64,000 bases of DNA from Microbacterium marinum (GTDB lineage: Bacteria; Actinomycetota; Actinomycetes; Actinomycetales; Microbacteriaceae), in the NCBI RefSeq assembly GCF_014204835.1, contig NZ_JACHMD010000001.1:1-64000 (forward strand), in the 5' to 3' direction. Positions 57 to 35,260 of the stretch are shown one piece after another; the first letter of the stretch is position 1, and every line of letters starts with the position of its first letter. The notes under the pieces are model-generated. The model ran no database searches, was not told the DNA's origin, and saw only the letters and a list, made by a program, of their open reading frames with translations. The position numbers and the translations under genes are program-made.

Positions 57-67
57 ACGAAAGAAGT

Positions 68-184
68 CCGGCGGTGTCCTACTCTCCCACAGGGTCCCCC
101 CTGCAGTACCATCGGCGCTGTGAGGCTTAGCTTCCGGGTTCGGAATGTGACCGGGCGTTTCCCTCACGCTATGGCCGCCGAAAC
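68..184 (-). rRNA. rrf: 5S ribosomal RNA
   Basis: The reverse strand starts near 184 with the typical actinobacterial 5S 5' end and ends in the matching 3' strand near 68. The conserved internal segment CCGAACCCGGAAGCTAAG is present. Length is about 117 nt. It is the last gene of the leftward 16S-23S-5S operon, about 107 nt after the 23S end. End points are approximate to a few bases. Confidence 0.96.
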
Positions 185-254
185 ACTATTGATGTTTCAA
201 AATCGACACAACAGCATGAATGTTCATGTGTTGTGTGGTTCTCGACCGTACATC

Positions 255-281
255 GAGAACCACTCAGTGGACGCAAGCACC
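255..281 (-). other. 3' arm of 23S precursor processing stem
   Basis: In the leftward transcript this 27-nt segment of the 23S-5S spacer can pair with 3480-3506 in the 16S-23S spacer. Twenty-six of 27 positions pair (some G-U), with one A-A mismatch. The two arms flank the whole 23S gene, so they would form the long-range stem that RNase III-type enzymes cut when releasing pre-23S. The pairing is seen in the sequence; the processing role is inferred from other bacteria. Confidence 0.8.
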
Positions 282-291
282 TAGAACGGTG

Positions 292-3395
<3,104 letters not shown>

Positions 3396-3479
3396 AAATC
3401 ACATGAGTTCGAATCGTCAATCGAAATTGACTAATGATCTTTAAGATCATCTTTCTGTTCCGACCGAAGTCGAAACAAA

Positions 3480-3506
3480 GATGCTCGCGTCCACTGTGTA
3501 GTTCTC
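3480..3506 (-). other. 5' arm of 23S precursor processing stem
   Basis: This segment is the partner of 255-281; together they give a 27-position duplex with one mismatch around the 23S gene. It overlaps the boxA-like TTGAGAACT core, so antitermination and processing signals share sequence here. Confidence 0.8.
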
Positions 3507-3696
3507 AAAGTACGGGCGGTACCTCCCCCGCACCGGCACTGCCGGCAAAAGGAAAGGCCCTGAGGTTCGTCAGCATCAGATTCGAAGACCCAACCCATCC
3601 GGTCCCTCAGGACCCAACAGCGTGCATGTGCCAGAAGCCTCACCCCGAACCGTTCCAGACCCGAAGGCCGTACTGAATCCGGAAGTCACCCTCCGA

Positions 3697-3710
3697 CACC
3701 TCATCAAATG
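3697..3710 (-). other. 3' arm of 16S precursor processing stem
   Basis: In the transcript this segment, just past the 16S 3' end, pairs with 5473-5485 in the leader. It forms 13 base pairs with one bulged G and two G-U pairs. It would close the 16S gene in a loop for RNase III-type cleavage. The pairing is seen; the function is inferred. Confidence 0.6.
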
Positions 3711-3782
3711 TTCCACCCATGAGCTCCCCGCAGAGACATTCGCTCTGATCGGGGGCCTGGACAGCCGAAGCTGCCAGATGCT

Positions 3783-5312
<1,530 letters not shown>

Positions 5313-32167: not shown

Positions 32168-32926
32168 ATGGCCCGGATCATGACCATCGCCGCGGTGCTC
32201 GCCGTGCTGCTCATCGTCGCAACCATCGTCGTGTTCGCCTTCGCGGCGGCGCGCCGGGGACGATCCGGCGACGATGCCGCGCCGTTGGTGCGCGTGACCC
32301 GCGCGGTCGGCGTCGTGTGGCTGGTGTTCGCGACCATCGGCGCGTTGGCGAACCTTCTGATCCCGTTGCTCTCCCCCGCCGTGTCGATCACGATGCCGAT
32401 CCAGGAGTTCTGGCCGCAGCTTCCGAGCACGGTCGATCTGCAGACCGAGGCGACGCGCGTCGCGGGGGGCTTCACGACCGTCACCCTGGCGGTCGAGGGC
32501 CTGAGCGCCGTCGCCCGCGTGCTCTGGGCGATCAGTCAGATGGTTGCGTGGGCGATCCCGGGCGTCGTCGCGCTTTTCGTCGTCGTCGCGTGCTCGCGCC
32601 TCCTCGCCGGAGCCGCGTTCGCACCCGTCGTCGCCAAGATGGCGGCCACAACCGGCGCCGTCGTCGCTTTCGGCGGCGTCGCCGCGCAGGTGGTGGGCGA
32701 CCTCGCGGGGAGCATCGCCTCGACGCAGCTCTTCGGGTCCAAGGGCGGCTCGTGGGAGGGCGACTACGCCGGCATCGACAACGTGTTCGACGCCTGGGTG
32801 CCTGCCGCGACCGTGCAGATCTCGTTCCCGTTCTGGCCGATCGCGGTGGGCCTCGGGTTCGCGGTGCTCGCCGCGGTGCTGCGGTCCGGGTCCCGCCTGC
32901 AGCACGATGTGAAGGGGCTCGTGTGA
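32168..32926 (+). CDS. DUF2975-type membrane protein
   Basis: This 252-aa protein has about four to five hydrophobic helices (near residues 5-28, 45-68, 118-140, 155-175 and 220-240) and soluble loops between helices 2-3 and 4-5. It is followed by a Cro-like HTH gene with a GTGA overlap. Pairs of a DUF2975 membrane protein with a YozG-like HTH protein are widespread (yozF-yozG in Bacillus), and their function is unknown. The family assignment rests mainly on this gene pairing. It has a good ribosome site (GGAGG). Confidence 0.65.
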   Translation: MARIMTIAAVLAVLLIVATIVVFAFAAARRGRSGDDAAPLVRVTRAVGVVWLVFATIGALANLLIPLLSPAVSITMPIQEFWPQLPSTVDLQTEATRVAGGFTTVTLAVEGLSAVARVLWAISQMVAWAIPGVVALFVVVACSRLLAGAAFAPVVAKMAATTGAVVAFGGVAAQVVGDLAGSIASTQLFGSKGGSWEGDYAGIDNVFDAWVPAATVQISFPFWPIAVGLGFAVLAAVLRSGSRLQHDVKGLV

Positions 32927-33153
32927 GTCCCGCCGAAGACGACGAGCTCACCGGCATCCACTGTCGCCTCGATGAACTGCTCGCGGACCGCGGCATGACC
33001 CTGACCCGCCTGTCGGAGCTCGTCGGGGTCTCTGTCGTGAACCTGTCGATCCTCAAGAACGACCGCGCCCGCGCGATCCGCTACTCGACGCTCTCGGCCA
33101 TCTGCCGCGCCCTCGACTGCGAGGTCGGCGAGCTGCTCGTGCGCGCGGACTGA
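32923..33153 (+). CDS. Cro/YozG-like helix-turn-helix regulator
   Basis: A 76-aa protein consisting of almost nothing but an HTH_26/Cro-type domain, with MTLTRLSELVGVSVVNLSIL and a second half that ends CRALDCEVGELL. Such proteins regulate their own membrane-protein partner. GTG at 32923 overlaps the upstream stop by 4 nt. The inverted repeat over the promoter is the likely target. Confidence 0.85.
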   Translation: MSPAEDDELTGIHCRLDELLADRGMTLTRLSELVGVSVVNLSILKNDRARAIRYSTLSAICRALDCEVGELLVRAD

Positions 33154-33159
33154 GCCTCC

Positions 33160-33222
33160 GATTCCGGGGACGCGAATCGTCGCGTCGGGCTGCCGCACGC
33201 GACGATTCGCGTCCCTGGAATC
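33160..33222. repeat. palindromic repeat, family B copy 1
   Basis: A 63-nt near-perfect palindrome with 26-nt arms (33160-33185 and 33197-33222), one G-T wobble and an 11-nt loop. The outer core TTCCGGGGACGCGA is shared with three further copies at 33238, 34341 and 34414. It starts 6 nt after the HTH gene stop. Confidence 0.88.
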
Positions 33223-33237
33223 GCAGGTGCGAGCGTT

Positions 33238-33294
33238 TTCAGGGACGCGATGCGCCGCTTCGCGCGCGTCACACGACGAGACGCGTCCCCGGAA
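33238..33294. repeat. palindromic repeat, family B copy 2
   Basis: Outer arms are TTCAGGGACGCG (left) and CGCGTCCCCGGAA (right), enclosing a less symmetrical middle that contains CACACGACGAG. It lies 15 nt after copy 1 and 16 nt before the stop codon of the DUF559 gene. Confidence 0.8.
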
Positions 33295-33310
33295 CCACGG
33301 GCGGGAGCGG

Positions 33311-34240
33311 TCAGCGACGTGCGAGCGCACGCCGCACACGGGCGACGAGACCTGCGGCATCCGCGAACAGGTGCTGCTTCGTGACCCGGATGACGACCCA
33401 GCCCGCCGCGGCGAGCGCCTCGTGACGTTCGATGTCGCGCGACCACTGCCGCGCGTCAGCCCGGTGGTGCTCTCCGTCATACTCGACGGCGACGCGGTGG
33501 CGCGGGTAGGCGAGATCCACGCACGCCAGCAGCCGACCGTCGACGACGACGTTCCAGTTGAGTTCCGGCTCCGGAAGACCGCCGTCGATCAGCGCGAGAC
33601 GACACCACGTCTCGGGGCGGGATGCCGACCGCTCCCGCACGAGCGGCAGTGCAGCTCGCAACCGCTCGACACCGACCCGCCGCCCCGACGCCGCAGCGGC
33701 GAGGTCGTCGATCGTCGCGAGCGCCGGCCCATCGCCGCGGAACATCGGCACCCGTACGATCGCATCGCCGACGGCGACGAGGTCACGGACGTCGGGGAGC
33801 ACCGCCGCGAGGCTCGCCCAGGTGGATGCCGGGGCGAGCAGCGGCACACCGAGCTGCGGGTGAACGCACACCCGAGTCGAGGCCTGAACCATCCGGTGCC
33901 CTCGAATGCGCGCGCTCCTCGGTGTGCGGCTGGGCGCGAGGACGGCGACATCCACCGCATTTGGCCGGAACGCCGACGCAGGCAGCGGCAGACCCCACAG
34001 GACTGCGGCGGTCAGATGGCTGAAGAAATGCCCGTCGGGCAGCACCACGGCGTAGGCGAGCGCTCGGAGCGCGTGGTCGCCCTCGGCATCCGTCGGCACC
34101 GTCGTCGACTGCACTCGTACGCCACGGAACGGCCGGTCGAGGTCGCGCGCGCGGAGCCGACGCGGCGAGACACCGGCATCCGTCGCCGCCTTCACAGAGA
34201 ACACGGATCCGAGAGCCGGGGGCAATGGTCGAGGCTCCAT
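33311..34240 (-). CDS. DUF559 / AbiEi-like protein with a Vsr-type nuclease fold
   Basis: This 309-aa protein has an N-terminal winged-helix-like segment (about 10-50, FSVKAATDAGVSPRRLRARD). The middle resembles AbiEi antitoxin-type proteins. A C-terminal DUF559 domain (about 215-309) has the PD-(D/E)XK-like pattern VAVEYDGEHH, then RDIERHEALAAAGW. DUF559 proteins relate to very-short-patch repair endonucleases and their function is unknown. Four family-B palindromes bracket the gene, two on each side, and no partner toxin gene is present. ATG at 34240 is chosen because the upstream extension crosses the repeats. Confidence 0.8.
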   Translation of the reverse strand: MEPRPLPPALGSVFSVKAATDAGVSPRRLRARDLDRPFRGVRVQSTTVPTDAEGDHALRALAYAVVLPDGHFFSHLTAAVLWGLPLPASAFRPNAVDVAVLAPSRTPRSARIRGHRMVQASTRVCVHPQLGVPLLAPASTWASLAAVLPDVRDLVAVGDAIVRVPMFRGDGPALATIDDLAAAASGRRVGVERLRAALPLVRERSASRPETWCRLALIDGGLPEPELNWNVVVDGRLLACVDLAYPRHRVAVEYDGEHHRADARQWSRDIERHEALAAAGWVVIRVTKQHLFADAAGLVARVRRALARR

Positions 34241-34340
34241 GCGCCGATGCTCACGCCGTGATGACCGTGCGATCGGAGGATTCTCGGGAGACGTGGACGC
34301 AGTCTCGAACGGACGAGTTGGGGAGGACGCTCGGCGCCCG

Positions 34341-34399
34341 TTCGGGGGACGCGATCTGCCGTGTCTGTCAGCGGCAGACGACCAGACGCGTCCCCGGAG
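34341..34399. repeat. palindromic repeat, family B copy 3
   Basis: Left arm TTCGGGGGACGCG and right arm CGCGTCCCCGGAG enclose an inner stem TCTGCCG/CGGCAGA, so the element can fold as a branched hairpin. It lies about 100 nt upstream of the DUF559 start. Confidence 0.82.
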
Positions 34400-34413
34400 C
34401 AAAGGCGGCTCCC

Positions 34414-34474
34414 GTTCCAGGGACCCGATCTGCCGCGCATGCCGCGCGCAAACGACCGATCGGGTCCCCGGAAC
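34414..34474. repeat. palindromic repeat, family B copy 4
   Basis: Seventeen-nt arms (34414-34430 and 34458-34474) with one A-C mismatch. The GATCTGCCG after the left core is shared with copy 3. It ends 15 nt before the stop of the lipoprotein gene. Confidence 0.85.
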
Positions 34475-34488
34475 CCCGCCCACCCGCG

Positions 34489-35190
34489 TCAGCGGATGGA
34501 GACCGTCTCGGCCGCGTCGAGCACGCCGAGCGTCACGGTCGCGTCGCGATCGACCTCGACATCAGGGTCCAGCTGAGCGACCGTCAGCTGCGGTGCCATG
34601 TCCATCGTGCAGACCTGATCCGCATCCGGCGTGGCGAACGTGACGACGACGGATGCCGCGGATTTCACCGACACCGATTCGACGATCGGCCGACAGCTCG
34701 ACGATCCCCACGTCAGCAGGGCGATCGCATCGTCGCCGACCCACCCGGCCGACGGGGTGAACTCCTCGACCGGGTCACCCGTGTACGCCGGCAGGTCGAT
34801 GTCGCCCCGCGCGTCGCCGAGCGAGACCGTGACGCGCGCACCGTCCCGCGGCTCGACGCCGGCGGGCACGGGCACCGCCAGCGGCTGGGGCACGAGGTCG
34901 TCCGTGCACGCCTCGGCCTCCGGATCGCGCAGGGTGACGTCCACGACGCCGTCGACCTCCGCGACCTCGCCGAGCACGGGTGCGCACGACGAGCTCCCGT
35001 AGGTCACCACGGCGATCATCGTTCCCCCGGCGATCCAGCCGGCATCCACCTCCCACGCGGGCGCGGAGTCAGCCGCGCCTCCGTCGGGAACCGAGCCGCC
35101 GGGACCGGCTGCACCCGGGGTCGCGCACCCGACGAGGGCGGCGAGGAGCACGACGGTTCCGCCAAGGGCGGCGAGCAGGCGAGGGCGCAT
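34489..35190 (-). CDS. lipoprotein with two tandem copies of one domain
   Basis: This 233-aa protein has a lipoprotein signal peptide with lipobox LVGC. The mature part contains two homologous units of about 80-90 residues. Each starts AGW(I/V), has a GSSSC-x-P block, a C-T-x-D-(L/M) block and an ARVTVSLG/ATVTLGVL strand. Each unit carries two cysteines that could form a disulfide. It is anchored outside the membrane; function is unknown. ATG at 35190 is set by the signal peptide. Confidence 0.8.
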   Translation of the reverse strand: MRPRLLAALGGTVVLLAALVGCATPGAAGPGGSVPDGGAADSAPAWEVDAGWIAGGTMIAVVTYGSSSCAPVLGEVAEVDGVVDVTLRDPEAEACTDDLVPQPLAVPVPAGVEPRDGARVTVSLGDARGDIDLPAYTGDPVEEFTPSAGWVGDDAIALLTWGSSSCRPIVESVSVKSAASVVVTFATPDADQVCTMDMAPQLTVAQLDPDVEVDRDATVTLGVLDAAETVSIR

Positions 35191-35260
35191 GACGGGGGTC
35201 CTTCCGGAAGAGGGATGCCGCGGCATCCACTCGGGAAGTGTCACCGGCCGCCGGATCGTC

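Follow-up and report, generated by a model that had tools for sequence, protein, structure and literature searches.

A DUF559 nuclease gene bracketed by its own palindromes in Microbacterium marinum: a candidate unit resembling the REP-RAYT system

The first 64,000 nucleotides of contig NZ_JACHMD010000001.1 of Microbacterium marinum (assembly GCF_014204835.1; this whole stretch is hereafter called the window) contain a gene for a DUF559/MTES_1575 protein that is bracketed by two palindromes on each side (Table 1). The original prediction, made from the letters of the window, had described four hairpins with a common arm core, and we confirmed both the hairpins and the core; the outer arms of palindrome 2 were conserved, while its inner part was different. 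The two copies on each side were spaced 74 nt apart (palindrome 1 to 2 and 3 to 4). The extended arm core occurred four times in the window against an expectation of 0.04, and its pairing with its complement was found in these four palindromes, in no others in the window, and in none of three Markov-shuffled windows.

Table 1. Features of the DUF559 locus and its borders in the window
Feature	Coordinates	Strand	Remarks
Palindrome 1	33155..33227 (element about 33160-33222)	n/a	TTCCGGGGACGCGA arms; 36-nt arms, 1-nt centre
Palindrome 2	33237..33294	n/a	outer arms conserved, inner part differs
DUF559/MTES_1575 gene	33311..34240	minus	309 aa, flanked by one palindrome pair on each side
C-terminal nuclease domain (residues 205-309)	33314..33628	minus	Vsr/I-Bth0305I-like predicted fold
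N-terminal part (residues 1-202)	33635..34240	minus	AbiEi/Rv2827c-like predicted fold, DNA-binding presumed
Palindrome 3	34341..34399	n/a	
Palindrome 4	34414..34474	n/a	
HTH_26 gene	32923..33153	plus	adjoins the site in most empty and filled relatives; boundary marker, outside the system
Lipoprotein-like gene	34489..35244	minus	adjoins the site in empty and filled relatives; boundary marker

Comparison with related loci revealed that the palindromes were private to the gene that they flank. The arm match between copies within one locus was 13.27 out of 15 (34 loci), whereas it was 8.54 out of 15 when two DUF559 genes from a single genome were compared (6 pairs) and 8.24 out of 15 between genomes (555 pairs). 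Since the match within a locus was high and that between paralogues of one genome was close to the match between genomes, the palindromes follow the gene and not the genome. Consistently, the single other relative in the window genome, a paralogue with 49% identity, likewise has palindromes on both sides, of another sequence (TTCAGGTGGCAG...CTGCCACCTGAA). Protein identity and arm similarity were correlated (Mantel r 0.33, p 0.002, 499 permutations, 52 loci, L007, L003 and L065 omitted), and arm similarity was 13.0 out of 15 at protein identities of at least 70% and about 7 out of 15 below 40%. Because arm similarity tracks protein identity, both sides of the gene change together. In M. oleivorans, orthologues with 79 and 73% identity carried the palindrome of the window at the same site, M. 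flavescens carried GTTGAGTGTCC-type palindromes, and a Microbacterium metagenome-assembled genome carried this type on one side. These comparisons show palindromes that are private to the gene on both sides and diverge together with the protein, and the tie between nuclease and palindrome is well supported.

To describe how widely this arrangement occurs, we used relatives of the gene, which were present in 185 of 198 Microbacterium genomes, 106 of 150 genomes of a family sample and 125 of 197 genomes of a class sample; the loci examined were the best-scoring matches and not a random draw. With exact 10-nt words, a hairpin common to both gene sides was found in 54 of 89 Microbacterium loci. 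The corresponding counts were 52 of 890 for mismatched flank pairs, 2 of 445 after Markov shuffling and 7 of 116 for shifted windows. This test took 89 of the 94 loci, leaving out five with short flanks as well as L076, a longer copy of L002, and the identical loci L004 and L007 were each counted. A strict test with 11-nt arms and one mismatch, which omitted L007, L076 and the short-flank loci, placed a palindrome on both sides in 53 of 88 Microbacterium loci, the window included, compared with 25 of 264 mismatched flank pairs and 2 of 88 Markov-shuffled controls. The excess of mismatched pairs over shuffles is expected if palindromes are common to related loci. Among other Microbacteriaceae, 12 of 29 loci passed the strict test, although two of these calls (L139, L140) resemble coding or terminator sequence. 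At the class level, 18 of 27 loci passed, one of them (L163) a doubtful call, and 14 of 21 passed outside Microbacteriaceae; the shuffle controls cover the Microbacterium flanks. The relatives on Arthrobacter plasmids had a palindrome on both sides in L264, on one side in L263 and on neither in L265; L264 (NZ_CP012477.1, 212960-213907), annotated as a hypothetical protein, carries GTTGAGGGCCC-type palindromes.

Two further regularities were observed in these loci. GATCAT-containing palindromes, mostly TTGATCATGG, lie beside DUF559 genes of four actinobacterial families (L161, L163, L165, L166, L170, L171, L174, L177, L179 and L180), which suggests that one recognition type was kept over long distances. 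In addition, palindrome arrays showed a repeat of 73-74 bp, about seven helical turns, in 21 of 39 multi-copy loci (including L001, L009, L018, L023, L026, L030, L036, L039, L065 and L093), with a detected element length of 37 to 62 nt.

Copies away from the genes were examined in 20 genome-family pairs; since these sets were chosen by hand and the genomes are related, the counts are not independent events. The palindrome of the paralogue (the GGTGGCAG family) was present in 10 copies in the window genome (G000) and in 8 copies in G112, whose gene is 86% identical to the paralogue, with two copies at the gene in each. In a third genome, G102, the single copy lay at its own DUF559 gene (56% identical to the paralogue). 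This family was thus multiplied in two of the three genomes whose DUF559 gene carries it and in none of five others. In G175, G146 and G088, the genes share 48-54% identity with the paralogue and carry other palindromes. G056 and G015 are closer to the window genome by the neighboring cls gene (91 and 92%, compared with 80% for G112), yet they contain no copy. Hairpins of the CCGCAGTC...GACTGCGG family numbered 16, 17, 3, 41 and 5 in the five genomes that have this palindrome at their DUF559 gene. Seven other genomes had none, and the reversed pattern was absent from 11 of the 12. In the genome with 41 exact CCGCAGTC hairpins (G160; L248, L253, L258 and 38 more places), many were clustered by two to four. 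Because a hairpin-free genome necessarily has none at its gene, the informative part of these counts is that no genome had solo copies while lacking a gene-linked copy. For the two families tested, the counts agree with the link to DUF559 genes suggested in the original prediction, and the scatter without such a tie that was to speak against it was not observed. These comparisons show that, in two families, palindromes multiply only where a gene carries them, and it is the palindrome that multiplies, not the gene. In G067, TCGGTCGTCGCA was counted 104 times and its reversed control 69 times, a signal too weak to be relied on.

We aligned 28 copies of the GGTGGCAG family, which were 59 nt long and gap-free and shared a layout of a 12-bp outer stem, an asymmetric internal loop, an inner GTCGC/GCGGC stem and a variable loop. 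A conserved-fold structure was rejected, as pairing in these copies showed no covariation beyond shuffles. The genomic context was scored for 18 of the 28 copies, the others being at the gene or second members of doublets, with L223 not entered; 15 of the 18 were intergenic according to a simple open reading frame call.

The palindrome family of the window itself was not abundant in its genome (3,124,335 bases in one contig), as judged from the few close core matches and one degenerate pair in 300 kb. With up to one mismatch, TTCCRGGGACSCGA occurred at 11 places, of which 7 were arms of the window palindromes; with two mismatches it occurred at 163 places, compared with 49 for the reversed pattern, which is not a neutral control. 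The arm pair found outside the locus within the 300 kb examined (751,927-751,985; L204 11927-11985) had 4 mismatches in 28 positions and is possibly a decayed solo copy, and further decayed copies may be present elsewhere in the genome. An Rfam search of 14 loci gave nothing at the gathering score and 16 weak matches, mostly to hairpin microRNA families.

MTES_1575 and DUF559 (PF18741 and PF04480) were the only families above their cut-offs in the window protein, and both were matched by all 59 aligned relatives (E 0.1 or better). The protein is predicted to join an AbiEi-like N-terminal part to a Vsr-like C-terminal part. The predicted C-terminal fold is of the Vsr catalytic type with conserved acidic residues, and its nearest structural likeness was a homing endonuclease; a profile search against solved structures gave weak matches (3hrl, E 0.27; 3r3p, E 0.72). 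E210, D242, E253 and H259 were invariant in 59 of 59 aligned relatives and are putative catalytic residues. The original prediction had noted that a toxin partner is absent, and no toxin family, including the DUF1814 nucleotidyltransferase, was found among the three neighboring proteins scanned. A PADLOC assignment to a defense system was also rejected, the matches being weak (best E 0.009). At the left end of the window, a complete rRNA operon lies on the minus strand (66-5311; 5S 66-182, 23S 293-3398 and 16S 3789-5311), which accounts for the low G+C there.

The history of the site was read from the neighboring lipoprotein gene, which was found in 171 of 198 Microbacterium genomes. Among the 30 best-matching loci, with palindromes judged by eye, 14 contained the DUF559 gene, which in one case (G020) is interrupted by an internal stop; 2 contained a remnant, 7 were empty, 6 contained a palindrome only and 1 another gene. 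In the empty site L097 (G112), about 19 bp separates the neighbors. L099 (G015) is a decaying unit in which a remnant of about the last third of the gene (2200-2499; query residues 198-297) adjoins palindromes. In L105 (about 700-1160), the gene ends after about 90 codons beside insertion-sequence-like DNA that reads like the start of a transposase, and the upstream palindrome is retained. In G067, a DUF559 gene some 40 kb from the gene-free palindrome L113 carries a palindrome that the outer arm of L113 matches, and the inner part of L103 has a 12-base match to a flank in the same genome; this kind of match is a weak test because equally long matches to other genomes occur. The original prediction had also proposed a self-contained cassette with mobility ends, and in part this held: the site is empty in other species, but no second whole cassette with the same palindromes was found.

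These features resemble those of repetitive extragenic palindromes (REPs) and the REP-associated tyrosine transposases (RAYTs), for which palindromes flanking the gene are described, together with co-divergence, abundance tied to the cognate gene, and occurrence as singles, doublets and arrays (PMC2817692). The window locus has palindromes on both sides (2 + 2), though not every relative does; co-divergence was observed, and abundance only with the cognate gene was seen for the CCGCAGTC and GGTGGCAG families. There are also differences. The enzyme is a PD-(D/E)XK Vsr-like nuclease with an AbiEi-like part and not an IS200/IS605-related tyrosine transposase, and the elements are about 45-70 nt long, compared with the 20-40 nt given for REPs (PMC3733652). 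The REPs on the two sides of a rayt gene are inverted, whereas the flanking copies of the GGTGGCAG family, the one family scored, had the same orientation in 7 of 7 cases in G000 and G112, as judged by the inner GTCGC/GCGGC asymmetry.

We consider it probable that the locus is a nuclease-plus-palindrome unit that operates in the manner of RAYT and REP, with an unrelated enzyme cutting and copying its own palindromes. The AbiEi-like part would recognize the outer arms, much as AbiEi and Rv2827c attach to inverted repeats within the promoters of their own genes (PMC7319586), and the Vsr/homing-endonuclease-like part would cut or nick DNA at the palindromes. Repair or replication from the break would then copy and homogenize the palindrome, so that copies form arrays next to the gene and also reach other intergenic sites in some lineages. 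The link between protein and palindromes drawn in the original prediction is supported by comparison across genomes; binding, cutting, and cutting as the driver of copying are what we infer.

Several observations weigh against this interpretation. In total, 35 of 88 Microbacterium loci failed the strict two-sided test; one-sided arrays were present among them (L008, L021, L030 and L039), with L030 placed on both sides by a looser search. At the lipoprotein-HTH site (HTH, helix-turn-helix), 15 of 27 relatives passed and 12 failed, L008 and L025 being one-sided and L010 and L019 degenerate by eye, so that the palindrome-free orthologues named in advance as damaging do exist as a minority. L047, a locus where the gene contains an internal stop, showed no palindrome. 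Furthermore, solo palindromes compared between the window genome and G112 gave no clean filled/empty pair and no precise insertion borders; most of the sites compared were common to both, with different copy numbers.

Alternatively, the AbiEi-like part may bind the palindromes as its own operators, with the dispersed copies forming a small regulon or decoys and the nuclease acting elsewhere. The promoter binding described above for AbiEi and Rv2827c fits this idea, as do upstream copies that often begin 120-250 nt ahead of the gene and the persistence of the 73-74 bp spacing despite varying element length, as phased duplex sites would show. Helical phasing was nevertheless dropped: the 73-74 bp mode was sharp, but spacings outside it showed no significant periodicity at 10.5 bp (p 0.2; at 10.0 bp, nominal p about 0.02 among eight periods). 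Palindromes also lie downstream of the gene, 13 of the 18 scored dispersed copies have convergent or co-directional genes as neighbors and 2 have divergent ones, and the multiplication of copies is left unexplained. Autoregulation as the whole explanation is therefore unlikely, while the unit may, as an added role, use the palindromes to regulate its own gene. Common transcription terminators or insulators that surround an uncharacterized gene would account for strong intergenic hairpins, some of them between convergent genes. However, a scan of 32900-34700 found no T-run after the palindromes and a single terminator-like site, which falls inside the gene, and terminators need neither gene-private sequence on both sides nor a tie to one gene; this explanation is hardly credible.

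A transposon in which the palindromes are the ends of the whole cassette and the nuclease is the transposase appears improbable. Different DUF559 genes of one genome had different palindromes in 6 of 6 pairs, as do the two genes of the window genome, so that several copies of a gene with the same ends per genome were not found. Relatives keep to the same lipoprotein-HTH site genus-wide, and no target-site duplication could be defined. The gene itself seems to move rarely, as tblastn with the window protein detected relatives in just 4 of 72,556 plasmid records and in a single one of 50,697 phage records. It is very doubtful that an unlinked enzyme mobilizes the palindromes and that the DUF559 gene is no more than a resident among them, such as a homing nuclease that has them as its target. 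The likeness of the C-terminal domain to a homing endonuclease and the palindromes at gene-free sites would agree with this, but each gene lineage has its own palindromes and no tested genome contained solo copies unless it also had one linked to a gene; no search was directed at another enzyme that tracks the palindromes.

The proposed nuclease-plus-palindrome unit also differs from the known relatives of its parts. Homing relatives of Vsr-like endonucleases sit in introns. Empty sites were found at the window locus in other species, but they yielded no defined target for cleavage of an allele that lacks the cassette. The window protein differs from I-Bth0305I and other Vsr-like homing endonucleases in its private flanking palindromes and its N-terminal AbiEi-like part, and from the AbiEi and Rv2827c antitoxins (type IV AbiE) in its fused nuclease and in the lack of a toxin family among the neighbors scanned. 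The likeness to the MTES_1575 and DUF559 families lies in the matches to both throughout the aligned relatives; the namesake MTES_1575 domain is part of a very large fusion with HEPN, helicase and winged HTH parts (PMC3710099), in contrast to the stand-alone, palindrome-flanked gene studied here. In the open-access literature, with preprints and subscription papers largely outside its coverage, we found nothing linking DUF559 with palindromes or inverted repeats.

Taken together, the observations have the appearance of a system for spreading repeats that relies on an enzyme without a known role of that sort. REPs have so far been tied to RAYT transposases, and an unrelated, little-studied nuclease family, DUF559, which takes its name from a domain of unknown function, shows the same signs. 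Whether actinobacteria harbor a second, independently evolved REP system, in which PD-(D/E)XK Vsr-type nucleases with AbiEi-like parts breed private palindromes through break and repair, is in our estimation evenly balanced. If so, stand-alone DUF559 proteins would gain a role, repeats would have a second route of spread that is not based on tyrosine-transposase chemistry, and the family would offer a large natural set of protein-DNA target pairs with a diversifying recognition code.
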